Below, one piece after another: positions 28,755 through 57,796 of a DNA stretch of 64,000 nt. Made by a program: the position numbers and the translations under genes. The notes beneath the pieces are model-generated. The model ran no database searches. It was not told the DNA's origin and saw nothing but the letters and a program-made list of their open reading frames with translations. Positions within the stretch are counted from its first letter, which is position 1, and every line of letters starts with the position of its first letter. Source of the DNA: Nicotiana tabacum (Eukaryota > Streptophyta > Magnoliopsida > Solanales > Solanaceae); assembly GCF_000715075.1 (NCBI RefSeq), contig NC_134085.1:150998178-151062177 (forward strand), written 5' to 3'.

Positions 28755-28793
28755 CTACATATCCTGGGCTAAACAGGAATCAGGTCAGTGTAG
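28755..28793 (-). ncRNA. Two-stem hairpin motif, copy 1 (E, next to PPT)
   Basis: Plus-strand layout: outer CTACAT (28755-28760) pairs with GTGTAG (28788-28793), and inner TCCTG (28762-28766) pairs with CAGGA (28774-28778). Here the outer stem is CTACA/TGTAG where most copies have CTACG/CGTAG, so both sides changed together. The label is for a predicted RNA or DNA structure, not a proven RNA gene. Confidence 0.6.
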
Positions 28794-29106
28794 TTCGGGA
28801 ATGTCTGGTAGCTGGGACTACCAGGAGCTGTGATTTCACTACGATTGCTGTTGCTGCTGCTTTCTGACTTCCCTTATTACACCGTGTAAAAATAAAAGAA
28901 GCTAAACTATCTATGCGCTATGAATTACAAAAGTCCTATCTAGATTCTTCAAACTTGCTCTTGTACTTCCTCGTTGCCTTGTTGTCTTGTGTTGTCTTGT
29001 TTCCTCATTGTCTTGTGTTTTCTCGATAAAATTTCCTGTTGCTATTTCGCCTGGTTAACTGAGATGCTGTTCCCTCTCTCCAAACTGCTGAACTTGAGTA
29101 ATCTTG

Positions 29107-30185
29107 AACTCGAATGTATTCCTCTGTTATCCAGGCGGGCTTCTGATTGCTGAACTTGAACTTGGAAATACTCCTCTATTATCCAGGCGGGCTCCTGACT
29201 TCACAGAAATATACAAAACGAAGAAAACTTTCTGCCCCAGTTTGGAAACTGGGCACACGTTACCAGATATTCCTGACTGCGACTACCTAAAAATTTAGCA
29301 CTTCCATTTTCCCGGCGGGCTCCTGACTTCGCCTACTTAAAAATTTAACACCTCCATTCTCCAGGCGGGCTCCTGACTTCGACTACTTAAAAATTTAACA
29401 CCTCCATTCTCCAGGCGGGCTCCTGACTTCGACTACTTAAAAATTTAATACCTCCATTCTTCAGGCGGGCTCCTGACTTTGACTGCTTAAAATATTTAAC
29501 ACCTCCATTCTCCAGGTGGGCTCCTGACTTCAACTACTTAAAAATTTAACACCTCCATTCTCCAGGCGGGATCCTAACTTCGAATACACAAAGAAATTGA
29601 TTGAAAACTAAAATCTGAATTGTGTTACCTCTGTTCTTCAGGCGGGCTCCTGATTGCTAAAATTGAATTGTATGTCTCTATTCTCCAGACGGACTCCTGA
29701 TTGCTGAAATTCAAAATGCGTGTCTCTGTTCTCCAGGAGGACTCCTGACTTTTAAAATTTAAACTGTATGTCTCCGTTCTTCAGGCGGACTCCTGACACC
29801 AAACTTAAAAAGTATGTCTATGTTCTCCAGGCGGACTCCTGACTTCAACAAAATAATTAACCAACAGAAATTTTTTGTCCCAGTTTGGAAGCTGGGTGTA
29901 TGGGTGAGTGTTAAACTGAATCATATTATCACATATTACTAAGAATTGAAAGCTAAATCCTATTATCCAGGGAAGTCCTGACAACTCCTCATAATTACAA
30001 ACCTAAAGTATTACTCTCACTATATCATGTTATCTACAAGGGTTTAAACTACATCCTTTTATCCAGGAAGATCCCGTCAACTCCAAATAATTATGAACCT
30101 AAGGTGTTACTTCTCACTATACCATGTTATCTTATCCGGTTATTTGAATTATGTCCCTATTATCCAGGAAGGTCCTGACAACTTG
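29107..30185. repeat. Mini-hairpin tandem array in E 3' UTR
   Basis: About 13 copies of a core like CAGGCGGGCTCCTG recur every 47-76 bp (about 126 bp at one gap). Between 29281 and 29580 the unit is a regular 50 bp. The core is an inverted repeat, CAGG-CGGGCT-CCTG. Variants further right include CAGGA-GGAC-TCCTG (about 29732) and CAGGA-AGG-TCCTG (about 30161). No spacers of unrelated sequence separate the units. Confidence 0.85.
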
Positions 30186-31488
30186 CATTTTATCCTAAAC
30201 ATGCAAACTTTGCAACCAAATTATATTCCCCTACGCTATTCATGATTATCTCGTATTTAATCAAACCGCACTTTGCGGTCAAACTTGATTACTGGTTGCT
30301 TTCCCTTTATAGAGAATTCCTCCTGAACAACCAACTTTCTGCCCCTGTTCCAATCAAAGAAAATTCTGTTAGTTTAAAATGGTGGTTAGTTGATGACATT
30401 CTTGCTGAAAAATCCTTCCCCTGCATTGCCTTGTGTTGACTGACCTCCACGCACTGACCCTGAACCACTTGACTTTCTGAACAACTTTTAAATTCCCCGA
30501 CCTCTGGCGACCTAAATGTTTTACACTCATGCTGTTATTTCGCTTTTCTGACCCTTTTGTTTGAACCTTTGTATTTCCCACAACATCTCCCAATCATTTT
30601 ACCGATGAACTTCCGTTAATTCCCTGTATTCCATTTTACATCATGTTGTTTTTGACATGCTCTGACCACATTGTACTTTATAATTCCGGAAGCTGGTAGT
30701 GAGCCTTGAGATCCTTTCCCACGTGCCTTTGAACATAACTAACATTAGAACATTTAGACAAACAAAACCCCCAAAAGAGAATGAAATGCAATGGTTTTAC
30801 GGGTTAATGATAAGAATAATCCAAAACCGGATGACTACTAAAAATGAAGTGAAGAAAACTTATCTGACCGGAACAACTGACGCCAATGGTCATGACATGC
30901 ATTTCGGACTAATCGACCCAACCGATCCACTAAAACAACTCTCAATTGCCATACCTCATTGCTCAGAACTTCCATCAATTGTTTGAATTACCCAGACGTT
31001 AACCTTGTTTTCCTGCAGTACCACACAACGGTTTCCATCAATAGACCTTTCTCAATTTGCCATCTCTCAACTCACTTTCGCCTTGAGGTGCCCGTGAAGG
31101 TTTTCACCACTAAGACTCTCTCATTTTATTTTCTCTCAGCTCCCGTCGCCTTACGGTGCCCGTGAAGGTTTTCACCAATAAGACTCTCTCATTTTTACTT
31201 TTGTTCTTTCTTGCTTGAACCAGAGTGTTGCCACTGCTACGAATTACCGCTACCTGCTCGACCTGGCATTTCTTAGGAATTGATCAGAAGGTCTTTCTTT
31301 AGACCGTAATGTAGGATTTTGGATTGGGTTAGAAAGAAAGGTATAAAAGGCTCAAAACAATTCAAATGGGTTTAAATTACAACTCTCGGAATCCAATTTT
31401 CACAACAATCACAACTTCTGCCCCAGTTTCTTGCTTGAGGATTTTTGGATTTTTATTTTGGTATGACTGAACCTCGGAGTAAGGCTGC

Positions 31489-31521
31489 CTACGTACCCTT
31501 TCGGGATCAAGTCAAACGTAG
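31489..31521 (-). ncRNA. Two-stem hairpin motif, copy 2 (E, after pol)
   Basis: Outer CTACGT (31489-31494) pairs perfectly with ACGTAG (31516-31521). The inner stem is CCC/GGG with loop TTTC. A polypyrimidine block follows at 31540-31735. Confidence 0.6.
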
Positions 31522-31910
31522 TTCACTGTATCATAGTTACCTTTGTTGTTGTGTTTTTTTTATTTCTTTTTCTCTCTTTTCTTCTTATTTTCCTTATTTT
31601 CCTTCACTTTTCATTTTTCTTCCCCTTTTTTTTGTTTTTGTTTTTTATTTTTTTTTTTATTTTTTTTCTTTTTCCTTCTTCTTTCTTTTTTTCTCTTTTC
31701 TTTTTCCTTTGCTTTCTTTTGTTTTTTTTATGTTCGGCACCTGTGTTCCTTGATAGTGTCATTGATTCCAAAAGAGGGATATGAAAAATAAGCAAGGCTC
31801 AAAGGGAATGACAAGGGATAAAAGTGTTTGGATAGCAGGATAAAACGCCTTCGTCATTTCAATCTTTAAGATATGCCAAATACAAATAGATATATTCAAA
31901 AATAAAGAAA

Positions 31911-34424
31911 TCATACATAATATCTCTTGACTGCATCGGAATTGATGGCCATTTCTATACATTTTCCTTCTACATCTATCAAATACAATGCCCCGTTAGA
32001 CAACACTCTGGTTACTACAAATGGTCCCTGCCAGTTTGGGGCAAATTTTCCTTTTGCTTCAGCCCAATGAGGCAAAATCCGCCTTAGTACTAACTGTCCG
32101 ACTTTGAATTTCCTTGGATGCACTTTCTTGTTGTATGCTCTTGCCATTATTCGTTGGTACAGTTGACCATGACACACTGATGCCAATCTTTTCTCATCAA
32201 TCAAACTCAACTGCTCAAGGCGGCTTTTCACCTATTCATCATCATCGATCTCAGTCTCCGCAACGATTCGCAGAGATGGGATTTCCACCTCTGCAGGTAT
32301 TACTGCCTCGGTGCCATACACCAATGAATAAGGAGTCGCCCCCACCGAGGTACGAACGGTGGTGCGGTATCCTAACAATGCAAAAGGTAATTTCTCATGA
32401 CACTGTCTAGACCCTTCAACCATCTTCCGGAGTATTTTCTTTAAATTCTTATTGGCTGCTTCAACCGCACCATTTGCCTTGGGACGGTATGAAGTAGAAT
32501 GCCTATGGGTAATCTTAAACTGATCACATGTCTCTTTCATCAAATGGCTATTAAGATTAGCTCCATTATCCGTGATGATTACCTTCGGAATCCCAAACCG
32601 ACAGATGATATTTGAGTGCACGAAGTCGACTACAGCTTTCTTAGTCACAGACTTGAATGTTTTAGCTTCCACCCATTTGGTAAAATAGTCCATAGCTACC
32701 AGAATAAACATGTGCCCATTTGACGCTGCTGGATCAATTGGCCCAATAACATCCATGCCCCATGCAACAAAAGGCCATGGTGCGGACATCATATGTAGTT
32801 CTGATGGTGGAGAGTGAATCAAATCTCCATGCACTTGGCACTGATGACATTTACGCACAAAACTGATACAATCCCGCTCTATAGTGAGCCAATAATAACC
32901 TGCTCGGAGAATCTTTTTTGCTAGAACGTACCCACTCATATGCAGTCCACAAACTCCGGAATGTACCTCAGTCATGATAGATGTAGCCTGTCTCGCGTCC
33001 ATGCATCTTAACAATCCGAGATCTGGAGTTCTTTTGTACAACACTCCTCCACTAAAGAAAAACCCGCTTGCCAATCGCCGAATCATTCTTTTCTGATCAC
33101 CGGTGGCCTGTACTGGATACACTCCCATCCTGATGTACTCTTTGATATCATGGAACCACAGCTCGCCGTCGATTTCCTCTTCTATCATATAACAATAAGC
33201 ATGCTGATCACAGACCTGAATCTGCAACGGATCAACATAAGCCTTGTCTGGATGATGCAACATCGACGCCAAAGTAGCCAAAACGTCAGCAACCTCATTA
33301 TGAATCCTTGGAATGTGCCTAAATTCTATAGCCTGAAACCGTTGACAAAGCTCATGCAGACACTGCCGATACAGTATAAGCTTCAAATCCCGTGTTTCCC
33401 ATTCTCCTTGAATTTGGTGTACCAGTAGGTCTGAGTCACCCATGACCAAGACTTCCCATACACACATATCTACAGCTAATCTCAATCCCAATATACACGC
33501 CTCATATTCTTCCATGTTGTTTTTACAGTAGAAACGAAGCCGAGCTGTAACGAGGTAATGCTGACCTGTTTCAGAAATAAGTACCGCTCCTATTCCTACG
33601 CCTTTCATATTTGCAGCCCCATCAAAGAAAAGTTTCCATCCCGGCTTCTCGGCTTGTTCCAATTCATCAATGTGCATCACCTTTTCATCAGGGAAATAAG
33701 TTTTCAAAGGTTCATAATCTTCATCGACGGGGTTCTCAGCCAAATGATCGACTAGTGCCTGTGCTTTCATCGCAGTCCGTGTCACATAGATAATGTCAAA
33801 CTCTATAAGCAAGATCTGCCACTTTGCAAGCCTCCCTGTGGGCATGGGCTTCTGAAAAATATACTTCAACGGGTCCAAGCGAGATATGAGGTAAGTAGTG
33901 TAGGATGACAAATAATGTTTCAACTTCTGTGCCACCCAAGTTAGGGCGCAACATGTCCTCTCCAGATGAGTATACTTAACCTCGTAAGATGTGAACTTCT
34001 TGCTGAGATAGTAGATAGCCTGCTCCTTTCTACCCGTAACATCGTGCTGCCCCAGTACACAGCCGAATGAATTATCCAAAACCGTCAGATATAGAATCAA
34101 AGGCCTCCCTAGTTCTAGCGGGACCAACATGGGTGAGTTCGACAAATACCCCATTATCTTATCAAAAGCCTCCTGACATTCATCAGTCCATTTGACCGCA
34201 ACGTCTTTCTTCAACAATTTGAAAATCGCCTCACAAGTTGTCGTGAGCTGAGCCATGAACCTGTTGATATAGTTCAATCTTCCCAACAAACTCATCACCC
34301 CGATTTTGTTTCTTGGAGGTGGCAATTCCTGAATAGCTTTGATCTTCGACGGGTCTAATTCAATACCCCGCCGGATGACTATAAACCCCAACAACTTCCC
34401 AGATGGCACCCCGAAAGCGCACTT
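31911..34424 (-). pseudogene. pol: Element E pol: RT thumb, two RNase H domains, integrase
   Basis: A 753-residue frame (34493-32232) begins usefully at KCAFGVPSGKLLGF, which is the RT thumb; the fingers and palm with the YxDD motif are absent. A Ty3-type RNase H follows (about residues 130-250), then the second, archaeal-type RNase H typical of the Tat/Ogre lineage (about 286-412; FFDGAA, NMEEYEA, GDSDLLVHQ, HNEVADVLA). Integrase has a zinc finger (H511, H518, C549, C552) and the DDE triad at D581, D642 and E678, with the canonical 35-residue spacing. A TAG at the end of this frame, in place of the family's Trp, splits off the C-terminal 106 residues (32231-31911, GKFAPNWQGPF). The product could not copy RNA. 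Confidence 0.93.
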
Positions 34425-35242
34425 CTGTGTTTGTTCCTCCTCCGTCGAACCCTCGAACACAAATGCTATTTTTGCAGATTCTATCATCATCAATCTTCAA
34501 CTTGTTCAATGTGGACAATGTACAAATATTAGCACTTGACCCGTTATTGATCAGCGCCCGAGTAACTATTGAACCTTCACACTTGACCGTCAAGTAGAGA
34601 GCTTTATTGTGTTCTATGCCTTCCATAGGCAATTCATCATCAGAAAATGCTACCCTGTTTACCTCAAAGATCTTGTTGGCAATTGTCTCCAGATGGCTCA
34701 CTAAAATTTTGTCGGGCACATGAGCTTCATTCAATATCTTCATCAAAGCTCGGCAATGCTCGTCAGAATGGATCAATAATGACAACAACGAAATCTGGGC
34801 CGGTGTTTTTCTCAATTGTTCAACAATGGAATAATCTTGCACTTTCATCTTTTTCAGAAATTCTTCTGCCTCTTCTTCCGTCACAGCCTTTTTGACTAGC
34901 ACTGGATTGTCTTTAGCGCCCCTAGCCTTTCTCAACTCTTCGGGAGCAAAACAACGTCCCGACCGAGTTAGTCCTTGTGCTTCACAACTCTCTTCCTCAA
35001 TTTCCTTTCATTTGTATGTCACCACTACCTTGTCATATTTCCACGGTACAACTTTGCTATCAACCACGGGTAATTGGACTACCGGTTTTATGACAACTGG
35101 TTCTATGTAGGCCCCTTTCACAACAACCACGGGCACAAATGATGACCCTGGTACCACTTACTTGACTAGATCTGGCTTTTTTTGCAGCAACAAATGGTCC
35201 TTTTCCCATTACCAACACTGGCTTATCTTTTATTACTTTTAG
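34425..35242 (-). pseudogene. Element E protease, truncated
   Basis: The frame 34935-34360 contains the retropepsin-like segment ALINNGSSANIC. In relatives the motif reads DNGSS, so the catalytic Asp is replaced by Asn here. About 30 residues later, after VRGFDGGGTNTE, the sequence jumps into RT-thumb coding in another frame (junction about 34424-34440). This means the protease C-terminus and the RT fingers and palm were deleted. The linker 34936-35242, between gag and protease, is recognisable (VVPWKYDKVVVTYK) but has frameshifts and a TGA where Trp is expected. Confidence 0.8.
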
Positions 35243-37172
35243 CTAAACCACTGGCCTTGCGCTCACTGTCTTTTCTTTGACCTTGGCTTCCGTAGAATGG
35301 ATCACCATAACCGTCTGAGAGGGTTTTTTAGGCTCTGTCCCCTTATGTATCAGTTCGATCATATTGGCTTCATAATGCACTGGTAATGGATTTTGATTGA
35401 TGTTTGGGGCCTCTGGAGCCTGTACTTCAATACGGCGATTATCAATGAGTTCTTGTATCGCGTTTTTCAACTTCCAACATTTTTCAGTATCGTGCCCCGG
35501 CATCCCTAAGCAATACTCGCAGCTAATAGAATGGTCCAGGTTTCTGGGAAAGGGGTTTGGTGCTTTGGACTCAATTGGGGTCAACATTCCCAACTGTTTC
35601 AATCTATGGAAGAGAGCGGTGTAAGATTCTCCCAGCGGAGTAAATGTTTTTCTGTTTGGGGCCTTCTTACTTCTAAAAGCTTGGTTTGGGCGGAAGCTGG
35701 TTCCTGGTCTGTTTGCCCTGGGAGGTGGATAGGTGTTTTGTGGGGGTGGATGTGTGTTTTGGGGAGTCGGTGCATGCCATTGTGAGTGCACCGGAGGCTG
35801 AGTGTGGGTCTGGGCGTGGTGGATAGAAAAGTGTGGTTCTGGTGGTGGATAGTAGTGTTGCGGTGGGCCATATGGGGTATATTGGTAGTTTGGGTGGTGG
35901 GGTCTGGGTTGGTTGTAGTAGGGTGGAGGGTTATTGGGCCTGGACCAAGCACTAGCTTCAACCGTAGCAACTTCTTCCTTCTTATTCTTTCCAAGCACAC
36001 CACCAGTACCGCTTTGGATGGCCTGGGTGGTCGCTTTCAATGCCGAGTAGCTCAAGATCTTGTTAGATTTCAATCCCTCCTCAATCATGGCTCCCATCTT
36101 TACCACTTCATTAAATGACTTTCCGACAGATGTCACTAGATGACCAAAATAGGTAGGCTCCAGTGTTTGCAAGAAGTAATCTACCATCTCACTCTCCCTC
36201 ATTAGAGGACCAACCCTTGCTACTTGTTCCCTCCAGCGGAAACCAAACTCTTTAAAACTTTCCCTAGGCTTCTTTTCCAAGCTTCAACAATGACAGACGG
36301 TCAGGGACTATCTCAAGGTTATACTGAAAATGGCCAATGAATGCTTGTGCCAAATCATCCCATGTATACCATCGGCCGGGGTCCTGTCTCGTGTACCATT
36401 CCGGCGCAGACCCGCTCAAGCTTTGACCAAAATAGGCTATCAACAATTCATCCTTTCCCCCAGCACCTCTCATTTTGCTACAAAAGCCACACAGATGGGC
36501 TACTGGGTCACCGTGCCCCTCATACAAGTCAAACTTCGGCATTTTAAAACCCGCAGGCAACTGAACATCGGGGAAAGGGCACAAATCTTTGTATGCAACG
36601 CTGACTTGGTTGCCTAAACCATGCATGTTCCTGAAGGATTGCTCCAGGCTTTTGACTTTACGAATCACTTCCTCCTGTTCTGCATTCTTAACCGGTTTCT
36701 CCACTTCTCCAGGGATTTCAAAATGGGGAGAATAAGTATATGGCTTAGGAGCTTTGAAAGTGGGTTCGGGAGGGTAATATTGGGTGTCGTGAGCTTGGAA
36801 TAGCGGTTCACTGGACGATCTATGTAATGGGGCTGGGGGAGGTGCCACAAAGACTGGAACCATGGGTAGGGGAGGGTTCTGTTTGGGGGGTGGAGCTGGG
36901 GGAGCGTATGAAATGGTACCATAGCCCTGGGCGTGATAGGGGAAGGCTGAAGATGCGTGGGGAGTGGTGGGCTCCTGAGCCTGAGCCAGAGGTGGGATGT
37001 AAGATGGATTAGCGGGATATAGTGGTGCCGGATGTCCCTGAGACCATGCCCGATGCATTTCAGCCATTTGTGCTTTTAGTTTCCTCATCTCTTCTTTCAT
37101 AGCACCCACATCTGTTACCTCAACTTCATTTGAAGGGTCTATGATGCTGATTTCCGAGTCCTACCCTGTCAT
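35243..37172 (-). pseudogene. gag: Element E gag
   Basis: An ATG at 37172 is followed four codons later by TAG (probably CAG in the parent), then the frame runs on through EVEVTDVGAMKEEM. Next come a short coiled N-terminus, a Pro-rich stretch, and the capsid region (PKFDLYEGHGDPVAHL, EWYTRQDPGRWYTWDDLA). A one-base shift at about 36264-36280 moves reading into the second frame (EKKPRESFKEFGFRWREQ), which carries a Pro/Tyr/His-rich linker and a zinc knuckle CEYCLGMPGHDTEKC. The layout matches Tat/Ogre gag. With two lesions it is not translatable as one protein. Confidence 0.9.
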
Positions 37173-37861
37173 GTTTACTTTATCTTTCGACCGGGTGTTG
37201 TACGGGTGAGTTGCCAGAATTGCCAATCAACTAACCACCTGCCTGGAAATTCACACATTTAGACAACCACTTTGTTAGCGATTAAGTTTTAACAGATTTG
37301 ACAACCGTACGTTGGCATGAATGCACTTATGCAGTTAATCATTGCTATTATGCATTTGCTCGATTGCATGCGTCATCCTGGCATTTCGTTCTTTGTTTTT
37401 CTTTACCCTTCTTTCAAATTCCTCACCTTATCCCTCTCTTGTGCTCTTTCCTTTCTTCTTATTTCATTTTCTTTTGTGTTTCCGCTCATTTCTTGCTTTC
37501 TCTTTCTCTTTTTGTTTTTCCGCTCTCTTCTTTCCTTCTCTCTTTTTTCCGCTCCCTTATTTTCTCTCTCTCTTTCTTATGTTTTGCTGTTACGATTACG
37601 ATCGAATCCTATGAAGATTGCCTACGTATCATGACCCCGCACGAATCAGACCAAGCGTAGTTCGTGAAAAATAAATGCAACAATGACAGGTGGAAATAAG
37701 AATAAAATTTTTTGAAAATTTCATTTTTCATTACTAAAACAAACTATTACAAACTAAACATTCTCCGGAATGAAACTAACATACGCAAAATAAAAACACA
37801 GACTCTAAGATAATGGACAGTTGAAAGACAGACTCAAAAGGTAGAAAACTACAAACATGGC
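37173..37861 (-). other. Element E spacer between ORF1 and gag
   Basis: Noncoding. It contains a long pyrimidine-rich block on the plus strand (about 37380-37600, purine-rich in the element's sense) and hairpin copy 3. The plus-strand frames of Phe/Leu/Ser repeats in it are artefacts of the pyrimidine bias. Confidence 0.75.
37622..37660 (-). ncRNA. Two-stem hairpin motif, copy 3 (E, ORF1-gag spacer)
   Basis: Outer CTACGT (37622-37627) pairs with GCGTAG (37655-37660). Inner TCATG (37629-37633) faces CACGA (37640-37644); on the minus strand this is a complete stem with one G-T wobble. Its counterpart in F (49241-49279) has the fully paired TCATG/CATGA. Confidence 0.6.
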
Positions 37862-38908
37862 CTATGCATACTCTAGTGCTTCAAACTTAGGTATCCGCGG
37901 GGCGTCGTTCGGCCTCGCCGCGGACCTAGGATCCAAATCCCTTTCAAGCTGCTCTAATTCATTCATGGTTCGTTTCACATAGATCATCACTGCAGAGATA
38001 AAAGTAGTAGGGGTCATGTCTTTACAAACCCGGCATCTCCTGAAAATGGCATGAGCAATGGATCTAATCCTGTCTTTTGTTTGCTTCTTTTCTATAAGCA
38101 ATCGTCTTATCTGATCATTGCATTTCTTTAAAGATCGGGAGTCCTGCAGGTGTTGATCTTGCAACTGCTGCACTTTTACCTCCATTTTGGCCAATAAGTC
38201 ATAACAATGTCCACTTTCAATTCCAAAATCTCTAGCTTGCCTAACCATTTTACCCTCAAGAGCAGCCACTTTTCTCTTTAAATCGACAATAATTTTCTCA
38301 TGGTCCCTTTTCAACTGATTCAAGTACTGGCAACGCTCCTCTGTTCTGGTAGCCCACTGTGCTTTAAGCTCTGCCATGATATTTCGGATTTATCTAATTC
38401 ATCCCGCCATTCCCTGACTTCGTTTTCTAATCTTTTTATCAATTGCTCAACGGATCGGTTCCTTGGTTGCTTATCGACGATTATCTTCAATTGCCGGATT
38501 TGGGCACTAAGCACTTCGTTTTCTCGAGCCAGTCTGTTCTTTTCACCTTGATCTACGGCAACCTGTACACTGTTCTCGAATTTTAGACTCTCAACTTGCT
38601 GCTTCAATTTACCAATCTCAACTCGATAGCCTTCTTTCTTTGCTAACCAGTCCTATTGCTCTTGGGACGACTTGGCGAAATCTTCGAGATGAGGTCTTTT
38701 AGCCGGTCTCCCACACGCCACGTCACCTCTGAACCAATCATGATACCCCGGGGCAACTTCCCCTTTAGCCCTATCTGACACACAAGTGTTCGCCATCAAA
38801 TGTTGACACTCACTCCAGATTTGGCGAACCTCTTCTTCGGGGAACCGACCGTCAGGACTAATTTCGACCACTTGGGTACTCAGATCTTCATCTGTCGGTA
38901 CTACTTGA
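37862..38908 (-). pseudogene. Element E ORF1, C-terminal part
   Basis: This continues the frame that starts at 56521 and was split by element F at the CTTGA target. Minus-strand reading gives VEISPDGRFPEEEVRQIW, then a TAG at about 38653, then a long Glu/Lys/Leu-rich segment with heptad-like spacing (coiled coil). A one-base shift near 38380 links to a last frame of 171 residues ending at 37862. ORF1 upstream of gag is a known feature of Ogre elements; its function is unknown. The coiled coil suggests multimerisation, which is inference. Confidence 0.8.
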
Positions 38909-43135: not shown

Positions 43136-43251
43136 CCGAAGACACGAAGGGTTTTCGTGCAAAGATAAAGTGAGCGATTTTTGCCCATCCGAGTACTCCG
43201 TGTGAAGCATTTTTTTGAAAGATTTGACCGAACCTTTGCTTCAGAGGTTTC

Positions 43252-43782: not shown

Positions 43783-44700
43783 TGCAATGTATTCCTCTAT
43801 TATATGGGTGGGCTCCCAACTTCAACCAACAACTTTGAAAATAAATTCGTCATTCCTCTCTTCAGGCGGGCTCCTGACTTCATCAACAACTTTGAAAAAT
43901 AAAATGCCTTTCCTTTCTTCAGGCGGGCTCCTGACCTCAACAACAACTTTGAAAATAAAGCGCCATTCCTTTCTTCAGGTGGGCTCCTGACCTCAACAAC
44001 AACTTTGAAAATAAAATGTCATTCCTTTCTTTAGGCTGGTGTGATTTCAACAACTTTTAAAAATAAAACGCCTTTCCTCTCTTCAGGCGGGCTCCTGACT
44101 TCATCAACAACTTTGAAAAATAAAATGTCTTTCCTTTCTTCAGGCGGGCTCCTGACCTCAACAACAACTTTGAAAATAAAGCGCCATTCCTTTCTTCAGG
44201 CGGGCTCCTGACCTCAACAACAACTTTGAAAATAAAATGCCATTCCTTTCTTTAGGCTGGCGTGATTTCAACAACTTTTAAAAATAAAACGCCTTTCTTC
44301 TCTTCAGGCGGGCTCCTGACCTCAACAAAACTTTGAAAATAAAATGCCATTCCTTTCTTTAGGCTGGCGAGATTTCAACAACTTTTAAAAATAAAACGCC
44401 TTTCCTTTCTTCAGGCGGGGCTCCTGACTTCAACAACAACTTTGAAAATAAAATGTCATTCCTTTCTTTAGGCTAGCGAGATTTCAACAACTTTGAAAAA
44501 TAAATGCCTTTCCTTTCTTCAGGCGGGCTCCTCACTTCAACAACTTTGAAAAATAAAATGCCATTCCTTTCTTCAGGCTGGCGAGATTTCAACAACTTTT
44601 AAAAATAAAACGCGTTTCCTTTCTTCAGGCGGGCTCCTGACTTCAACAACAACTTTGAAAAATAAACGCCTTTCCTCTCTTCAGGCGGGCTCCTGATTTC
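43783..44700. repeat. Mini-hairpin tandem array in F 3' UTR
   Basis: Units of about 58-60 bp carry TCAGGCGGGCTCCTGA (stem TCAGG/CCTGA, loop CGGGCT) followed by a TTCAACAACAACTTTGAAAATAAA-like stretch (broken here by variation). Some units alternate with a second type containing TTTAGGCTGGCG, giving a higher-order pattern. The first unit (43805-43818) reads TGGG-TGGGCT-CCCA, so both stem arms changed in concert. Confidence 0.9.
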
Positions 44701-44710
44701 AACAACACAC

Positions 44711-44890
44711 AATATCCTATTCGAGGGCGGATGAACCCAACATATCCTATTTTGAGGGCGGATGAACCCAAAATATCCTATTCGAGGGCGGATGAACCCA
44801 AAATATCCTATTCGAGGGCGGATGAACCCAAAATATCCTATTCGAGGGTGGATGAACCCAAAATATCCTATTCGAGGGCGGATGAACCCA
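44711..44890. repeat. 30-bp tandem repeat, six units
   Basis: The unit reads AATATCCTATTCGAGGGCGG plus ATGAACCCAA. The units are nearly identical and abut directly. It lies between the two mini-hairpin arrays of element F. Confidence 0.9.
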
Positions 44891-45630
44891 ACTAGGAAGT
44901 GCGTCTCCTACGAGTAAAACTTGTATGAACCAAAATCAGGAAGTGCGTCTCCTAAATCAAAATATAACCTGAAAGACCCAGCCTAGGAAGTGCATTCAAT
45001 GATTCAAACTAGGAAGCGTGTCTCCTACAAATGAACTTAAATGAACCAGACTAGGAAGTGCATCTCCTAGGGGTGAAACTTCAATGATTCAACTAGGAAG
45101 TGCGTCTCCTACAAACTTAATTTAGGAAGTGCGTCTCCTATCCATGAAATTAAACTTAGGAAGTGCGTCTCTTATGGGTAAAATAACTCAGGAAGTGCGT
45201 CTCCTATGGGGTAAAAGTAAACTTAGGAAGTGCGTATCCTATGGGGTAAAAGTAAACTTAGGAAGTGCGTCTCCTGGGGTAAGATAAACTTAGGAAGTGC
45301 GTCTCCTATGCATGAAATCTTAATTTGGGAAGTGCGTCTCCTATGCATGAAATTAAACTTAGGAAGTGCGTCTCCTATGGGTAAAAATAACTCAAGAAGT
45401 GCGTCTCCTATGGGAAAAATAACTTAGGAAGTGCATCTCCTAGGGTAAAAATAAACTTTTAGGAAGTGCGTCTCCTATGGGTAAAACCTTAATGATTTTG
45501 AACTAGGAAGTGCATCTCCTATGCCTGAAAATAAACATAGGAAGTGCGTCTCCTATTGTTAAAACTAAACTTAGGAAGTGCGTCTCCTATTGGTAAAACT
45601 AAACTTAGGAAGTGCGTCTCCTATGCGTGA
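44891..45630. repeat. TAGGA/TCCTA mini-hairpin array, about 21 units
   Basis: The core TAGGAAGTGCGTCTCCTA recurs every 25-47 bp with variable A-rich links. Each core is an inverted repeat, TAGGA-AGTGCGTC-TCCTA. The array is noncoding on both strands; the short plus-strand frame 45230-45427 is a by-product. Confidence 0.88.
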
Positions 45631-48166: not shown

Positions 48167-48967
48167 TTAGCCACTGAGCTTTGCATCAATACTGCCAAGA
48201 CCATTACCAGCTTCAACATCATCAACCTCCGTCAACAAGTTCTCGATAGGGTTCGAGTGCTCCATGTCACTGTTATTGATCACAATCCGCCCTTTTTGGA
48301 TCATTTTTTCTACTCCCCTTTTCAGATTACGACAGCTCTCAATATTGTGCCCTCTGACATTGGAGTGGTATACGCATCGTGCTGCTGGATCAAAGTTTCT
48401 TGCACGTGGATCTGGAGTATATGCGGGGAGCGGCTCAATCAAGCCAGCATGCCTTAGCCTTTCAAACAGACTTACATAAGATACTCCGATAAGGGTGAGA
48501 GCCTTTCCTCGTTTCAGCAACCTCTCATTCCTAAATGCTTGATTGGGCTGGAAACCTGATCCAGGGGGCTTCCGGTAGGCTTGTGAGGGAGGATAGGCCT
48601 TCTGTGGAGCTGGGTATTTGGAAAGTGAAGCATGTCTTTGGGAGTCTCGTGGAGAGAAGTAGTGTCGAGGAGGGGAGTAGCGTTGACGAGTGATGGAGCT
48701 ACTCGGGTAGCTGGGAAAGCTGCCATAAGTGGGTTGGGATCGAGAGTATGGGGGATCTTCCATTATGGTATTGGGTGCTTGGGTAATGACAGAGTTCAAT
48801 AAGCTTGGCGGTGGAGGGGGTGGTGCTTTCCCAGTCATCTATGCCTGATACATGTCTGCCATATGCTGTCTCAGCATTTTCACTTCTTCTACCAACCCGT
48901 TGTTCCGTTTGACCAGTTGTTGTCGGTCATCAGTACCGACCCACTTGGTTCTGAGGTTCTGAGTCAT
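48167..48967 (-). pseudogene. gag: Element F reduced gag
   Basis: It starts at ATG 48967 with a coiled N-terminus (KRNNGLVEEVKMLRQHMADM), meets a TAG at about 48839 where the family has Trp, and continues as a 223-residue frame. That frame is Pro/Ser/Tyr-rich, then has FQPNQAFRNERLL, SLFERLRHAGLI and a worn zinc knuckle region CVYHSNVRGHNIESC. Compared with E's gag, the whole capsid core is missing between the Pro-rich stretch and the nucleocapsid part. It probably makes no functional Gag. Confidence 0.85.
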
Positions 48968-49240
48968 TGTCTTTTGACTTTGCTTTGCAGGGAGGAGTTA
49001 CCACAACCAACCACTTTTTGATATGAACACAGCAAAGTGAAGCCATCACATTAGTGTTAGGGCATTTGACAGATAATCATATATCAAAGATACAGTGCAC
49101 CTAAGCAGTTAAAAAGTTCTATCATGCCTTCATTTCAGTTAAGTGCGTAGTTCCGGCTTCTTGTAATTGTGCCCCTTTGAAAATCTCCCACACTTTCCTT
49201 TATTTTTTTTTCAATTGTGGTCGAATCTTATGGAGATTGC

Positions 49241-49279
49241 CTACGTATCATGACCCCGCATGAATCAGACCTTGCGTAG
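49241..49279 (-). ncRNA. Two-stem hairpin motif, copy 6 (F, upstream of gag)
   Basis: Outer CTACGT (49241-49246) pairs with GCGTAG (49274-49279, one wobble). Inner TCATG (49248-49252) pairs with CATGA (49259-49263). It is the counterpart of copy 3. Confidence 0.62.
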
Positions 49280-49794
49280 TTCGGACCAATAAAAGATAAA
49301 TAATAATAAAACATTTTTTTTTGTTTTGGAATTTTCAATTTTCATATTAAAACAAACTTGATTACAAAAGTTTTAAAAAAACTGACCATATTAACAGACT
49401 TTGACAAAAGACAACAAATGGCCTCGAAAATCAAATAACTCGCATACTCTAATCAAAGAATTACAAACTCAAAAACAAATGGCCAGTTCCTTTCCCCGTT
49501 TGACAAATGCAACCAAACGGTTAATTTTTTGCAAATGTGGCCCCTTCCAAATTTCATATGAATTTTGAGGTCGGGGAGGATTATTTTATGACACTTTACA
49601 AACTTGCCCATTCTTTTACGAAAATAGCCTTTCGACAACTGAAAGATACTCTGAGGCTATTTCGGCAAGAACGGTTTAAGACGCGGCCGAAACTGGCTTG
49701 GCTTATTTTTGACTAATAATCCGAACGGTGTTCACCTGACCGCTGACTCTTTGTTGTTGTTTTTTTCAAATTACAATGAAAACCTGGTGTTGCA

Positions 49795-50189: not shown

Positions 50190-50277
50190 CAAAATTAAAA
50201 CTTTGACATATTTTTTGTTTATTTATTTGTTTTTGGTTATTTTAGCAAAAAGGGAGGTTGGACCCGATGAGGGTTGC

Positions 50278-50316
50278 CTACGTATCTCACATCCGGTGAG
50301 AATCAAACCCGCGTAG
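50278..50316 (-). ncRNA. Two-stem hairpin motif, copy 7 (F, leader)
   Basis: Outer CTACGT (50278-50283) pairs with GCGTAG (50311-50316). Inner TCTCAC (50285-50290) pairs perfectly with GTGAGA (50296-50301). It is the counterpart of copy 8. Confidence 0.62.
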
Positions 50317-51244
50317 TTCGGAAAATTAAACAAACTATTTTAAAACACGACTTTTTTTAATTTAATTTTTAGCATTTCAAGCAAAATAAATGAATAAAAT
50401 AAAAAAAACTATTTTAAAAAAAATAACATATTTTCGCTTCCGTTGGCAAATAAACTATTTTGAAACAAAAATCAAGACTCTTTTTCTTTTCCCATAACAG
50501 AACAAACTATTTTTTTTGAATAAAACAACTATTTAAAAATAAAATATTTTTCTCAAAATTTCGGCAGAGTTTCGACAGTATTTGGGTATTGATTTTTTTC
50601 CAAAACAATCAATTAACTCTTCAACTGCTATTTTTCTTTTCTCTTTTTTTTTTGTTTAAATTTCTAACATTCCCGAGATTCAGAAGCCGATCAACATGCA
50701 AGCCCGAGCAAATAAATGCACAGAAAACAAATAGGATGCATCAGGATGGTCTTTTCATTTCAGGTTGCTAGCCCTAGACGGACCCAACCCCTATGTTGAG
50801 TCCCCTAAGTCAACATGCACATGATGCAGATAAGCGTTCCTACTAGGGATCCGGCATGAAGTTGGGTTATTCTAGGTTCAAAACCTGAGTGTTTGTTCTA
50901 GACCTGCTTACCCGAGCGGACAGCTCGAGCCGAGGGGGAGGCAGCAATCCGGGAATACAGAAGCTTCGCCGGCTTTGCAACTTATCCAAACCTCGTTCTA
51001 AATTGGGATTTGACACTATACAGAAAAGAAGTCGTACGAAGTACACCCTTCTTCATGATTCAGAAGACTCAGAGAGGAGATGAGTTTCGACACAGTTTAT
51101 ATACAGTTTACATAATATCAAAGCGGTAAAAGGCAATCAATTAGCACATTAGGCACATATCACGTAACAAAATCAAACAAAACCAAATACAACAATTATT
51201 CCAAGCTCGAATTCTGAACCCTGAACAAAACGTTCTGGGTTCGT

Positions 51245-51262
51245 TCCCCAGTGGAGTCGCCA
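51245..51262 (-). other. Element F primer binding site
   Basis: The minus strand reads TGGCGACTCCACTGGGGA, four bases (GAGC on the plus strand) from the LTR. This is the form of PBS reported for Ogre/Tat elements (tRNA-Arg type, from memory). Confidence 0.85.
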
Positions 51263-51266
51263 GAGC

Positions 51267-54200
51267 TATCACACCTCCTTTTTCCGTCCCCGCGAGGGGT
51301 GAAGGAGTTTTTTCCAATTAAAGGACAATCGAAACGGGATTTGTTTATTTATTTCAGAGTCGCCACTTGGGAGATTTAGGGTGTCCCAAGTCACCAATTT
51401 AATCCCGAATCGAGGAAAAGAATGACTCCATATTACAGTCCGCGAACCAGAAATCCGGATAAGGAATTCTGTTAACCCGGGAGAAGGTGTTAGGCATTCC
51501 CGAGTTCCGTGGTTCTAGCACGGTCGCTCAACTGTCATATTCGGCTTATTTATCTGATTTTATACAATTATGCGCTCATGTGCAAGTTTTAACTCTTTAA
51601 CGCTTTTATTATTATATTTTAAAAGAATATGAACATCGTTTAAAAATATGTCTTTGGATTGCGTCACATGAAATGCACCCGCGATCCGGAACGCATTTTT
51701 ATTCAATGTTTTGGGATTTGGATTTGAGTCGCATAAATGCGCGCCCGAGTATAAGAAGGTAAGATTATTAAAATGCGCGCCTAAAGCAATTAGCGTATTA
51801 TTATTTCTGGGTAAGGACGTGGAATTTTGCCAAAACGGCTCATCCCAAAGTCTAAGTAATTTTAATTAAACATTTATCGAGGGCCCCGCAATTTGTGTGA
51901 TTTATTAGGCGAGGCTCATCTCATTTATTTTAAAAGGATAATCCTAAAGTGCCTACATTTTTTCTATTAAAATTGTCTCTACAAAATGAAATAGAAAAAG
52001 GTCTTAATTTATTTACATGCTTGAGTTGTTATATTTGGGTTTCGAATATGATTCATAAATTCTAAAAATGATGCAAGCGGGGCAATCTGTTGCCAATGCG
52101 GGCCCAGGCTCAACGTGTATGGCATAAACTGGACCTGGGCCATCTTATTCACATGTTACTACCTAGTTACATTATACTAGGCATGTTCACAGTTTGTCAA
52201 ATTAAAAAAAAACTTAGCAATCTAATTTTAATTCTAAACCATTTACATGCTGAAATTAACCAATAGTATTTAACTAAACAACATTCCTACAAGTTCCTAA
52301 ATGGTCTATTCGTTTGATGAAATAACGTGCTTTTTGAGACATGGTAATCATCCAACAATAACGAATTAACTAGACGGAGTTACTACACCATTTATTTATT
52401 TTTAGGCAATATATAGATAGTTCGTCTATTAAGCTATCGTCAGATGTTCCACTATATATATTAACAGCTACATGATTCTGATTAGAGTAAGCTAAATAAT
52501 TTATATATACAAATAAAATTCAGAATATAATTAAAATAAATTTAGAACTTCAACTCTTCATTTTTGTATTCATGCTTCATGTTTCAATTTACAATAATCA
52601 GCGTGTCAGTTGTGTACCTGATATTGGAAGCAAAAGAAAAGGGAGATCAACAGAAATTCAGTAGCATACAATAACAGCAACACCCAGAAACCAGCAATGA
52701 GAAACCAATGAAGGATTTTAAAACTCAAGATAAAAATCCAGAAACACCAACAACAATCAACGGACAGAAGCCAAGGGAATCTTTTCAGATTTGAAAAACT
52801 AATTAATGTTCAACCCTTAATTTCTAAATCCGTATATCAGAATATTTAAATTGTATATCAGGTGTATACTATTCTTCTCTTGAATTTCCAGAATGTTTTT
52901 CTTTTTATTTTTGGAGTCTTAGTATTTTCGAATTTTTTTTCCCTCTCTTAAAATTCAACTCCCTTTTTTTCTCTCTCTTCCTTCTTTTTTCTGTCTCTTT
53001 TTTCTGTCTGATCAAGTTTTTCTATTTATCCCCATCTTTCAGCATTTTTTAAACATAAAACCCATTATCTTTCCACTCAACCCCCTTTTAATCCCACTAC
53101 TTAATGTTTTGTCCCCACTACATTAAACAAATATATCAACCCCACCCCATTACATCTTGTCCCCCATGCTTAACATAAAAAAATACATTATTCCCCCACT
53201 AATTTATGTCTTGTCCTCCATTATATTAAACAATTGTTCAAAAGTTTAATTCCAAAAATACCCCTCCGACCTTACTGGAATTACCAATTTACCCCTAAAC
53301 GTACTGCAAATTACCAAACTACCCCCATCAGCTATAACCAATTCACCTAATCAATTTCAACCAAAATACAACAAATATGACCAATTTCTAAATAATTTTC
53401 AACAACAAATTCAAACTAAATGATGAACAACAAAGAAAAAACTAAAATTATTTTGATTGAACAATATTTTTTAACAACAAACAAACCTACTTTCACATTC
53501 AACAACGACAACAACAAATAAGTATATTCAGATTTCTAAATTCAATAATCATTTGAACTTAAAATTAAATCTAACAACATTACAACCAACAATTTCTATA
53601 TTAAACTAAACAAGATCATGAAACAAACTGAAGAAATAATCTAAAATGATAATCAACAAACAAGAAGATCAAACTTATACTAATTTCGGATTCAAGAACA
53701 ATCAAACAAAGTATGAACATAAATGAAAAGATTCAACAACAATAACAAGCAAGTTTTATTCAAATTCGAATTAAACTCGAATTAAGCTTAAACAAAACAA
53801 ATAAACATATTCAAATCACTAAACTTCAAATAATCAATTGATCTTTTTAAATTAATTCCAACAAAATTATAACAAAGATACATTGAATCAAAAAATTAAA
53901 AACCAAAACATAACTTCACATTAAATCACTGAATTAAAAACAAACTTCAAACAAAATGAACACGAATTAAATCTATATTAAACAACAAACAACTCAAGCG
54001 ATTTAAACTAACACTTTTCTATATTAAATTTAAATCCTTTTAAATTAATAAAACAAACTGAAAATAATTAATTGAATCTTCAACTTAAACCTAGCAACAT
54101 TAAAATTAAGCTAATCAATTTCTACCTAAAAATAAACAAGAAAAATGAATGAAAACAAACTGAAAAAAAAATGATGAACATGAAATTAATATCAAACATA

Positions 54201-55506
54201 TTTGATTTCAAATCCTAAAAATATCAAACAAATTACGGACAGGAACGAAACATAAACCAACTAGCCGGATCGGAACGATGATGAACTCGAACGAAAACAA
54301 ATCTGCCCGGAAACAAATATCGCACCAAAATAACTCGACGCCGAAGACGACCCGAATAAGAAGCAACTGAAAGTCACAGTCGCGTGCTACAGGCTAGACG
54401 GAGTAGCAGCAATCCACAGCTGGAAGATGCAGCCATGGAAGCAGTGACGCGAAGGAGAAGAAGAAACAACGAGCATCAGTGAAGGAGGAGAAGCAGCAAC
54501 GGGCAACAGTGATAGATGTCGTTGGTTGTTTGGATGATTTCGACGTGAGTATGGCTGGTTGTTGTTGGGTTGTCGTAAGGACGATGAAGCCACGAGAGGG
54601 GGGGGGGGGACAGCCATGGCAGCTGGAGTTATCGTGGTCGATGAGCTGAGTCGAGGAAGTAGAAGACGCAGCGAGGGGTGGCTGTTTGGATGTGCAGGAG
54701 CAGAAGCCATGGTTGGAGGGGCGTGAAGGAGCAGAAGCCATGGTTGCTTTGGGTCATTCATGGCTGTCGTTGAACGATGGTGGAGCAGGAGTTCATGCTG
54801 TGCATGTGTGTGTGTGTTGAAGGAGAAGAGGCGGGGGAGAAGGGAAGCCATGGTTGGAGCTCGGAGGTTTTGAGAAGATGAAGAGAAAGAGAGGGGGCGG
54901 GTAGTGTAGGTTTAGTTTTAGGGTTTTTTGGAGTGGAAAATGAAAAATGGGAAGATGGGGGTGGGTCTTTGGGGTTATGGACTGGGTTGACCCGGTTTGA
55001 AATGGACCGGGTCGTAGGGAAGGTTGGGTATTTTTTGGGCCTGTGGCTTGAATTTGAAGAAGAGCCCAATTCCGATTCTCTTTATATTTTTTGCTCTATT
55101 TTCTTCTACTTTCTAATTAATAAAACTAAAATTCTAAATTAAGTTATAAACTAAATTAACTTATCAAAAATACTAAATAATTTCCAATAACTATTATCGC
55201 ACATTTAAATAGCAATTAACGATAAAATCGCACAATTTAGACGTTAAATGCTTAAATGCAACATACATTATTTTTTTTTAATGATTTTCTCATTTTTTGT
55301 AAAACAAACTTAAATAAATACTAAATGAAAATGCGACATATTTTATATTTTTATTAATTTAAATGAATAAACATGCACAGACGAAAATACAAATAATTAT
55401 ACAAAAATACCACAAAAATTCAAAACATTGCACACCAAAGAAAAATTATTTTATTTTGAATTTTTTGGGAGTAATTCTTTCATAGGGCAAAAATCACGTG
55501 CTTACA
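51267..55506 (-). mobile_element. Element F 5' LTR
   Basis: 4,240 bp. The plus-strand edge reads TATCACACC rather than TGTCACACC, a single transition at the LTR terminus. It is otherwise near-identical to 38909-43120; an extra AT-rich piece of about 30 bp near 53728-53757 is the clearest indel. This LTR's minus-strand TATAAAG at 55080-55086 would drive F's transcript. A G-run of 10 or more bases sits at about 54600-54609. Confidence 0.93.
55080..55086 (-). promoter_or_regulatory. TATA box of element F 5' LTR
   Basis: TATAAAG on the minus strand, conserved in F's other LTR (42696-42702) and in solo LTR G (28007-28013). Initiation would be expected about 30 bp further left, near 55050. Confidence 0.55.
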
Positions 55507-56521
55507 CTTGATACCTCCCGAGTTGCCTCAGAACCCGATATGGTGCATAGGGCTGGATTCTTTTGAGTCCCATCAACAGAAAATGCGGCCGGGCTGCTGG
55601 CATATATATGACTTCTTCGACAGGCAACCATCCAAGCACCCACTGTATCTGGCTGGCAGTGAGGGTCCGAAATAATGATGTCCAGGTCGTGACTCCTTTA
55701 GGTAGACTAGCCCCTTTGATTCTTGTGTAAAATTCTCCTATACAAGTTTTCTCAAACGAACCATAACTCAATAGTTGAGAGCGGGGGCACAAATGCTCAG
55801 TCATCCACATTTGTAACAACAAGTTACATCCCTCAAAAAATTTGCCCCCAGCTTTGCAAGCTGTGAGAGCCCGGAAGATGTCAGCCACGATCATAGGTGC
55901 TAAAGTGCTTTTCCCCATGGGTTGCAAAGTACCGACGACCCCTACTACTTTCAAATCAATAGCACCATCTTTCCTTGGGAATACTATGAGGCCCAAATAG
56001 GCTATCATAAAAGCCACCCGTCTGTGTTCCTCCCATTTTTGTTGGTTACTTCTATTGCATAGCTTAAAGTCTGAATTATTGAACCCGCACACGTGGCCAT
56101 ATATATCATATATGAAGCGGAAACTGCAGAAACCCTTTGCAAAATCTGGATGATGAACCGTTCGGGGTATTTTCAAGGAGTCCAAAAACCGGTGTATGGT
56201 AATGGCCCTGGGAGCAATTAAGTATTTGAACCTCAACGGAGCTTGATCACTTCCGATGTACCCCGCTATTTCTTCCAACGTCGGGGTGAGCTCAAAGTCC
56301 GAGAAATGAAATACCTTATGTGCCGAATCCCAATAAGCAACCAATGCCCTGATAATATCCCCCCGAGGCTGGATGTCTAATAAATCCGGAAGATCTTTCA
56401 AATATTTTTTCACTTCGTCTTGCCCTTCTTTGCCTAAATCATTCCACCATAATTGCAACTCAAAAGGGATTTTGGTCATTATTGAAAAAGGCTCATTTAT
56501 CATTGTGCTCATCCTGCACAT
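55507..56521 (-). pseudogene. Element E ORF1, N-terminal part
   Basis: An uninterrupted frame of about 338 residues starts at 56521 (MCRMSTMINEPF) and ends at the insertion of F; its last two residues and stop, as read now, come from F's LTR and the duplicated target. It contains WWNDLGKEGQDEV, FSDFELTPTLEEIAGYIG and FCSFRFIYDIYGH. The style recalls a plant domain of unknown function common in Ogre-related proteins (DUF7745, or the plant mobile domain group; from memory). There is no signal peptide or membrane segment. The frame was still open when F inserted, so this part of E had not decayed much. The other half is 38908-37862. Confidence 0.85.
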
Positions 56522-57796
56522 TTATTAAGCGATTAAGCAAAAAGAAAACTTTTTATTTGACTCAAAAAAAAAAACTATCTATAACTTGACTCAAAATTAC
56601 CTATATATTTCCAAATTTTACAAATGAAGAACTCGACTCTCAAACGCGGCCTTTCAGTACTTCGGGAACCAAGATTTTAAGGCTGCGAAAATCAACCGGT
56701 CACAAATCAAAAATTGACCAAGATGGCCGTTTTTGCAAAGTTAGCCTTCCACAGCTCCGTTTGGGAACATTTGGCTATTTTTGACAAAAACGGCATCACC
56801 TGGTTTATTTATGACAAAAATTAAAATTTTGATATTTTTTGGTTATTTTTGCAAAGGGGAGGTTGGACCCGATGAAGGTTGCCTACGTATCTCACGCCCT
56901 GTGAGAATCAAACCATGCGTAGTTCGGGCCAATTAACCGAACTATTTTAAAACAATACTCTTTTCCATTTTCAATTTTTCTTTTTAACAAACAATAAACA
57001 ACCTACATTCCAAACTTAAGAATAAAAAACTTTTTTTTTTCCAACAAACACTTTTCCAACAATAAAAGACTCTTTTTTCTATTTTTCTTTTGCTTCTAGT
57101 AAAACAGACTCTTAGAAATAAAGCATTTTCCTTTTTTTATTTTCTCAAAATTTCGGCAGAGTTTCGACAGTGTTTGGGCATTGGGTTTTTAACTCCCTAC
57201 CTGTTATTTCTCGCTCTTTTTTTTTCCTTCCTCAAATTTCCAACATTTCGAGATTCAGAAACCGGTCAACATGCAGGTTCGGAACAAATAAATGCACAAC
57301 ACAAAAGAATGCATCAGGATGGTCTTTTCATTTCAGGTTGCTAGTCCTAGACGGACCCAACCCCTGTGTTGAGTCCCCTATGTCAAATGCAACGTGATGC
57401 AAATAAGCGTTCCTACTAGGGATCCGGCATGAAGTCACGTTATTCTATGTTCAAAACCTGGGTCGGTGTTCTAGACTGTGTACCCGAGCGGACAACTCGA
57501 GTCGAGGATGGGGCAACTTACCGGGAACCAAAAGGCCATCCGGCTTCGTAACTTGTCCGGCCTCTTTCTTATTTCAAGGTATGACACTAACAGAATAGGG
57601 AGTCTCAACCAGTAAGCACATCCCCGGAGGTGAAGAGAGAAGGGACTCAGGCACAATTTATATATAGTTCAGATAATATCAAAGCGGTAACATTTATCAC
57701 ATTCAGCATAAAACATGTAGGAAATCAGATACAATCAAATACAACAATTTATCTAAGCTCGAATTCTGAACCCTGAACCAGAGATTCTGGGTTCGA
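56522..57796 (-). other. Element E 5' leader
   Basis: Noncoding, between ORF1 and the PBS. It carries hairpin copy 8 and a pyrimidine-rich run (about 57200-57235), and its PBS-proximal 550 bp are homologous to F's leader. Short open frames here (57090-57397) are not supported. Confidence 0.75.
56883..56922 (-). ncRNA. Two-stem hairpin motif, copy 8 (E, leader)
   Basis: Outer CTACGT (56883-56888) pairs with GCGTAG (56917-56922). Inner TCTCAC (56890-56895) pairs with GTGAGA (56901-56906). Stem and linker match copy 7 while the loop differs. Confidence 0.62.

Follow-up and report, generated by a model that had tools for sequence, protein, structure and literature searches.

We show by sequence comparison that an RNA element of 70-82 nt on the coding strand of Ogre-like long terminal repeat (LTR) retrotransposons is conserved as a predicted, pseudoknotted fold of four helices. 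The element occurs eight times in a 64,000-nucleotide stretch of the tobacco genome (Nicotiana tabacum, assembly GCF_000715075.1, contig NC_134085.1, positions 150,998,178 to 151,062,177), referred to here as the window. This stretch holds two nested Ogre-like LTR retrotransposons, E and F, both on the minus strand, with F inserted in open reading frame 1 (ORF1) of E. The function of the element, which we infer from sequence, would be to shield transposon RNA from decay or silencing-linked degradation, as a stability element. An earlier note on the window had described the eight copies as a plus-strand hairpin of about 40 nt with an outer and an inner stem, and all eight were recovered at its coordinates and with its layout.

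Anatomy and Orientation of the Element

From 5′ to 3′, the element consists of the first strand of outer stem a (CUACR/YGUAG), the 5′ strand of helix b (about 4 bp), UGAU, hairpin c, the second strand of a, GCA, hairpin d, a C, and the 3′ strand of b. Hairpin d, which directly follows GCA, and helix b lie past the hairpin originally reported and emerge from the sense-oriented copies. Helix b pairs the four or five bases ahead of UGAU with the bases directly 3′ of hairpin d, in the variants GGTT/AACC, GGTC/GACC, GACC/GGTC, GACT/AGTC, and GATC/GATC. Because the outer stem closes between the two strands of b, the helices form a pseudoknot in the order a, b, c, c′, a′, d, d′, b′. The two-stem anatomy and the length of about 40 nt are thus replaced by four helices in 70-82 nt. 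RNAalifold, which cannot draw pseudoknots, returned only helices a and c. Conservation rises sharply from less than 0.45 bits per site upstream to 1.8-2.0 at a GAA ahead of stem a, and UGAU, GUAG, and GCA are nearly invariant. Of 129 aligned matches, 121 retain the C that separates helix d from b′, in a joiner of one or two nucleotides. The shortest inner stem in the window (CCC/GGG, with a GAAA loop) belongs to copy B of E. In a divergent copy elsewhere in the genome (L196:318-401, minus strand, 44.8 bits), hairpin d is much longer and the inner stem differs; by eye this copy keeps all four helices, and it forms a distinct subfamily.

Six copies in the window, those with CTACG, match the letter pattern CTACGTA..ATCA..CGTAG, where 100 dinucleotide shuffles give an expectation of 0.00; the two CTACA copies are recovered only with the A-U form of the pattern. 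The covariance-model search proposed in the earlier note gave exactly eight matches in the window (59.9-80.3 bits) and no others up to E = 10 with default filters. The model was built from 45 sequences, including the eight window copies and one hAT transposon copy (L122), all of which match by construction; it contains helices a, c, and d and leaves out helix b. The best score in 0.69 Mb of viral DNA, made up of 80 of at least 120 contigs preselected for the letter motif, was 19.2 bits.

Self-comparison of the window indicates that there are eight copies because two related elements each carry four at homologous positions. Copy D lies ahead of ORF1, copy C in the gap between ORF1 and the gag-position ORF, copy B past pol, and copy A ahead of the 3′ LTR. 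With alignable flanks, the eight copies are not the independent instances that the earlier note had counted. All eight are sense-oriented and lie outside the LTRs and the listed ORFs (at least 150 aa). Between E and F, the element is more similar than its flanks of about 250 nt, with identities of 0.90 versus 0.70 for D, 0.86 versus 0.55 for C, 0.74 versus 0.67 for B, and 0.90 versus 0.72 for A.

The fold was previously placed on the plus strand, but it belongs to the minus strand, as do the coding sequences. In the copy at 37622, TCATG/CACGA leaves a C·A mismatch on the plus strand and a G·U pair on the minus strand. Among aligned cells, which are not independent of one another, 62 are G·U and 32 are A·C on the sense strand (51 versus 16 when two helix-end pairs are removed), and these counts are swapped on the other strand. 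In 52 of 53 cases, neighboring matches within a locus lie on the same strand, a count in which overlapping loci enter repeatedly. Outer-stem mismatches tallied by eye in 100 strings (about 12 G·U-type and 7 A·C-type) were too few for use.

Covariation Supports the Fold

Pairing was examined in a MAFFT alignment, made without structure, of 45 copies drawn from a pool of 114 that fell into 23 similarity groups; the clusterings used, into 23 and 20 groups, are rough string-similarity groupings. Standard pairs occupy 91.9% of 875 cells, compared to 80.9% when the letters of the 3′ strands are shuffled (0 of 500 shuffles reach the observed value), and sliding the partners by 1-3 columns lowers pairing to 19-38%. 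Two-sided changes occur in all five pairs of b, four of five in c, four of five in d, and one of five in the outer stem. In an early position-free test, helix b formed at least four pairs in 20 of 23 class representatives versus 67% of swapped pairs, a weak contrast; its summed score exceeded 4,991 of 5,000 permutations.

A larger alignment was built on the model lacking helix b, from 129 model matches in 96 loci, some of them overlapping. It contains 108 distinct rows, of which the window's genome supplies 107 and the hAT contig one (L121 and L122 are the same DNA); the window copies are absent. The four core pairs of helix b, which the alignment did not use, are 95.1% paired versus 79.4% after shuffling (0 of 500), and all four show two-sided changes. 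Covariation was scored with GTp statistics as in R-scape against a null that preserves phylogeny by re-evolving the columns on a FastTree tree inferred from this alignment. Of 2,926 column pairs, the six that rank highest (17-80, 24-39, 54-76, 25-38, 16-81, and 15-82) are all proposed ones, three in b, two in c, and one in d. Within the proposed set, five of the 20 pairs have E < 0.05, and 15-82 has E = 0.057. These values come from one genome, mostly one contig, with 60 simulations and a tree drawn from the same 77 columns. They bear out the earlier suggestion of selection on a fold. The inner-stem covariation reported then holds, and the significant signal extends to two helices that were absent from that description.

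Abundance in the Tobacco Genome

The search covered the window's own genome, 4.0 Gb in 700 contigs. The letter pattern matches 62,738 times, compared to 232 for the reversed pattern; with two outer-stem positions free, there are 83,864 matches versus 677 for the reversed control. One pseudoknot pair could be followed in bulk in three of four cells of a two-by-two table, with 10,405 matches for GGTC..GACC, 635 for GGTC..AACC, and 332 for GGTT..GACC. The 635 is overstated, as many of 100 listed strings keep GACC plus a later CAACC. Similar phrases are common in the DNA of several eudicot families. The genomic loci examined further (L123-L196) were taken around the first-listed places, namely the first 3.8 Mb of one contig and four loci elsewhere.

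Some elements carry two D copies ahead of C (L158:549-5582; L195:6356-7690, where they are 221 nt apart; L148:1498-3017). Copy number per element therefore varies, with five per element a possible count, and its comparison between elements could reveal dosage effects.

A loose form of the letter pattern matched at least 120 stretches in viral contigs. Five of these loci also match a longer motif, and in two of the five the string is identical. These matches were judged to be chance because stricter forms give none and the A-U form gives four in which no such fold was seen. Of two pattern stretches in viral contigs examined for Ogre pol, none was confirmed.

Occurrence in a hAT Transposon

A search with the strict pattern over GTDB genomes returned one match, on a contig (L121/L122, GenBank JAFUBK010000065.1) of a Bacilli metagenome-assembled genome (MAG) from roe-deer jejunum, a GTDB species representative. 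The contig encodes a hAT transposase (PF05699, dimerisation domain, 1e-21; PF14372, 2e-9), whose closest named relatives are from Dipteronia, Acer, and Xanthoceras; the closest overall (96% identical) is unnamed. Dipteronia belongs to the Sapindaceae, a rosid family. Because the closest named relatives are plants, this part is read as plant DNA in a chimeric or misassigned contig. By ORF-list reading, a bacterial ssb gene breaks off and the hAT transposase lies beyond. The MAG contig is a chimeric assembly or contamination. The plant hAT DNA (L121:7630-8000 and L122) begins near 7.6 kb, extends to 9.4 kb or beyond, and is joined in the truncated ssb.

The element starts 52 nt 3′ of the hAT transposase stop, in sense orientation, in the 3′ untranslated region (UTR). 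This copy has all four helices in a different sequence, such as CTTAAT/ATTAAG in d and GGCCTT/AAGGCC in b. The partner strand of b is less certain because AAGGCC recurs further on in the 3′ region, and both alignments misplace it. In the window's genome, a search for hAT relatives gave 8,788 candidates, of which 89 were scored, with a best identity of 33%. A hAT-like linker pattern matched there only four times, all in Ogre class D variants. The presence of the same predicted fold in class I (Ogre) and class II (hAT) transposons suggests an undescribed RNA control element that transposons have in common. If the fold is truly shared by two classes without a common replication step, a common host process, such as RNA decay, silencing, or export, is likely.

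Proposed Function and Alternatives

The best explanation for these observations, which we favor tentatively, is a conserved fold with a cis-acting, host-directed stability role. The element would act in cis on its transcript via host RNA machinery rather than retrotransposon proteins. In a concrete version, it would block 5′-3′ exonucleases or RNA-quality control, and parts of a long transcript targeted by small interfering RNA (siRNA) would thereby persist. Action in cis is indicated because F keeps all four copies without a pol ORF. We think that host-directed stability is most likely, with export and packaging next and self-cleavage possible by topology only.

A nuclear export or splicing-control element bound by a host protein, like the constitutive transport elements of retroviruses, is, on balance, improbable. 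Ogre and hAT RNAs must exit the nucleus unspliced, and an export signal could account for multiple copies and for two unrelated transposon classes. The nearly invariant unpaired UGAU, GAA, and GCA are also what a protein-binding site would be expected to show. However, the host ligand is putative, and present evidence does not separate stability from export.

A retrotransposon-specific cis element, whether a packaging signal bound by Gag/nucleocapsid or the ORF1 protein or an aid to dimerisation or reverse transcription, is likewise rather unlikely. Several copies per genomic RNA, all eight in the window outside LTRs and listed ORFs, are consistent with such a role, as is their retention in F, which has no pol ORF of at least 150 aa and would need help in trans. 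However, packaging signals usually lie near the 5′ end and not also past pol and before the 3′ LTR. Moreover, the same fold occurs, albeit at a single locus, in a hAT DNA transposon, of which no RNA is packaged; Gag-based packaging is therefore not the simplest interpretation. The earlier guesses of packaging, dimerisation, or reverse transcription fit poorly with this 3′ UTR copy.

A hepatitis delta virus (HDV)-like self-cleaving ribozyme, cutting transposon transcripts at the 5′ side of the element, is decidedly unlikely. HDV-like ribozymes have the helix order P1 P2 P3 P1′ P4 P2′, which a b c c′ a′ d d′ b′ reproduces, need no conserved nucleotides upstream of the first helix, and have reportedly been found in other retrotransposons. 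The sharp 5′ onset of conservation and the retained C between d and b′ also suit such an activity. HDV-like ribozymes are described as nested double pseudoknots with the catalytic C first in J4/2 (PMC10879173). Here, however, the joiner from d to b′ is very short and the GAA upstream of helix a is conserved. The loop of hairpin c is free in letters and length, so HDV's second, inner pseudoknot cannot form likewise. Rfam scans of three copies, taken to E = 10, returned no HDV-like family, and four cuts in the genomic RNA of an LTR element would be self-defeating. Transfer RNA-like, hammerhead, and splice-site readings were dropped because their core letters do not fit the covarying helices.

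It is very improbable that the copies have no RNA function and merely share descent as repeats or form a DNA-level palindrome: although copies within a class are closely related, E and F are homologous at all four places, and some shuffle measures stay at chance, covariation exceeds the phylogenetic null and includes pseudoknot pairs unused in the alignment, G·U bias favors one strand, the elements are better conserved than their flanks, and the hAT of another plant (L122) has the same fold in different letters.

Several results weigh against a conserved fold with a host-directed stability role. In the 45-copy alignment, 14 pairs show two-sided change compared to 12.4 after shuffling (64 of 500 shuffles reach this value), and further pair types are not above chance (252 of 500); two of five shuffle measures are thus at chance there, and likewise in the larger alignment. 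Apart from eight rows (L173-L176), the genome rows of the latter all derive from the initial 3.8 Mb of a single contig. Over all 2,926 column pairs, only 17-80 has E < 0.05 (0.017); 24-39 and 54-76 have E = 0.05, and 25-38 has E = 0.067. The outer stem, previously described as varying in concert, does show one type of two-sided change (G-C to A-U, in the two class A copies), but its compensation is not significant in the 108 rows (for 9-44, E = 0.66 when judged among the 20 proposed pairs), as the other four of its five pairs are almost invariant. When helices are enforced, predicted energies fall within 2 kcal/mol of the minimum free energy in 36 of 108 rows for a and c and in 37 of 108 for b and c (58 for either), and single-sequence folding, as modeled, does not strongly favor the fold. 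The hAT case is a single locus on a chimeric contig, and none of 20 hAT 3′ flanks in the window's genome (20 of the 89 scored hits) carries the element. Finally, decay blocking alone does not explain a copy placed just before the 3′ LTR.

Host Retrotransposons

Coordinates of E, F, and their element copies are collected in Table 1. Ogre/Tat elements are marked by an additional ORF1 upstream of gag, long LTRs, and giant size, as well as by a tRNA-Arg primer binding site and an RT that groups with Ogre in phylogenies. E has a Ty3-type pol with RNase H ahead of integrase, an additional ORF1 5′ of gag (assigned by position only), a 3.5 kb LTR, and a length of about 19.6 kb without insertions. It is classed here as Ogre-like, a predicted Ogre/Tat-type Ty3/gypsy retrotransposon. 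Its flanks read as a 5-bp duplication, ACGAC. The insertion of F cuts ORF1 of E, and 37862-38377 (minus strand) was read as the ORF1 continuation. The ORF1 tail gave only sub-threshold Isy1 and MAD profile matches and is coiled-coil-like by reading. The ORF list contains no pol ORF of at least 150 aa in F.

The solo LTR within the 3′ LTR of E belongs to an F-related family (about 71-92% identical in pieces), with CTAAA on both sides. A further LTR pair at 11097-21166 (91% identical, 3.1 kb each) abuts E directly; by the covariance model it carries no element copy and serves as a natural negative control. Both E and F contain minisatellite arrays in the interval from copy B to copy A (29149-29852, 43787-44709, and 44882-45636), with spacings of about 50-57 bp and 32-67 bp. 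Soybean GmOgre is likewise reported to have minisatellites 3′ of its coding region. At 10292-10398 (minus strand), the window contains a match to Rfam snoR71, a plant C/D-box small nucleolar RNA (snoRNA), at 44.3 bits.

Table 1. Features of retrotransposons E and F and the RNA element copies within them (bits, covariance-model score)
Feature	Coordinates	Strand	Remarks
5′ LTR of E	57818-61330	-	96.7-98.3% identical to 21166-24509 + 28442-28618
3′ LTR of E	21166-28618	-	Split by solo LTR at 24510-28441
ORF1 of E, 5′ part	55502-56521	-	Plant mobile domain/DUF7745: PF24924 8e-24, PF10536 6e-16
gag-position ORFs of E	35243-37109	-	Two, overlapping; no Pfam match
pol of E	32232-34493	-	Reverse transcriptase (RT) RNase H, RNase H-like, integrase: PF17917, PF17919, PF13456, PF00665, PF17921
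5′ LTR of F	51269-55506	-	97.3% identical to 38911-43120; F flanked by CTTGA on both sides
3′ LTR of F	38911-43120	-	
gag-position ORF of F	48167-48838	-	No Pfam match
Copy D of E	56848-56925	-	73.3 bits; 5′ LTR/ORF1 interval, 892 nt past LTR, 326 nt ahead of first listed ORF1 ATG
Copy C of E	37587-37663	-	75.5 bits; between ORF1 (stop side 37862) and gag-position ORF (start 37109)
Copy B of E	31452-31524	-	65.1 bits; 707 nt 3′ of pol ORF end (32232)
Copy A of E	28717-28796	-	59.9 bits; ends 98 nt short of 3′ LTR; A-U outer stem (CTACA/TGTAG)
Copy D of F	50243-50319	-	71.5 bits; 949 nt past 5′ LTR; flanks alignable with D of E
Copy C of F	49206-49282	-	80.3 bits; 5′ of gag-position ORF; flanks alignable with C of E
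Copy B of F	47226-47295	-	63.9 bits; flanks alignable with B of E
Copy A of F	43213-43294	-	65.9 bits; ends 92 nt short of 3′ LTR; A-U outer stem; flanks alignable with A of E

Comparison with Known RNAs

At the gathering score, Rfam 15 identified only the snoRNA in the window, and when three copies were scanned permissively, to E = 10, the output was low-scoring unrelated families or nothing. The pattern matches tens of thousands of times within a single plant genome, yet the element has no relevant counterpart in Rfam 15. Searches of an open-access library listed no paper whose title and abstract describe it, and passages of PMC12513839 and PMC4659654 contained nothing about it; prior mention is possible in subscription journals and in the original Ogre papers. 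Few pseudoknots with covariation support are known, as far as we are aware, from eukaryotic transposons. A broader proposal, which we regard as quite speculative, is that these copies constitute an undescribed pseudoknotted family with tens of thousands of members in one genome, present in Ogre and hAT transposons of distant eudicots and serving as a host-directed RNA-preserving module. Such a module may be a new exonuclease-resistant RNA (xrRNA); a novel catalytic RNA that shares its helix order with HDV is the less likely option.

The element shares with HDV-like ribozymes the pseudoknotted order of four helices and a conserved C in the joiner that leads into the final strand. It differs in its 5-bp outer helix, the conserved upstream GAA, the unconserved inner loop, and the very short last joiner. 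Plant retrozymes are said to bring hammerhead catalytic RNA to LTR-type elements; the hammerhead core letters and helix order differ from those found here, and no hammerhead was among the Rfam matches of the window or of the three copies scanned. Constitutive transport elements of retroviruses and retrotransposons are structured, host-bound, repeated RNA sites, to which no sequence or fold match was established.

The xrRNA-D of Tombusviridae and Luteoviridae forms its pseudoknot between the loop of P2 and the 3′ flank. It is a short pseudoknotted RNA that plant viruses carry between genes and in 3′ untranslated regions, with conserved nucleotides just before the pseudoknot 3′ strand and conserved loop letters, all of which have counterparts here (PMC6299227). 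In contrast, the 5′ pseudoknot strand of the present element lies between P1 and the hairpin rather than in its loop, and a whole hairpin separates the stem from the 3′ pseudoknot strand; resistance to Xrn1 is only putative.

The element for nuclear expression (ENE) of plant and fungal transposon RNAs is also present in hAT elements. Its U-rich internal loop binds poly(A) as a triple helix, whereas the present element has no U-rich loop, has an internal loop of UGAU opposite UA, and is also sited far from the 3′ end. The ENE is a cis-acting RNA structure in transposons, with a strong association with LTR retrotransposons, and stabilizes the transcript, as in Evade (PMC12501189) and as proposed here. 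Our element would therefore resemble plant-virus xrRNAs and the plant-retrotransposon ENE by analogy of role, not of fold.

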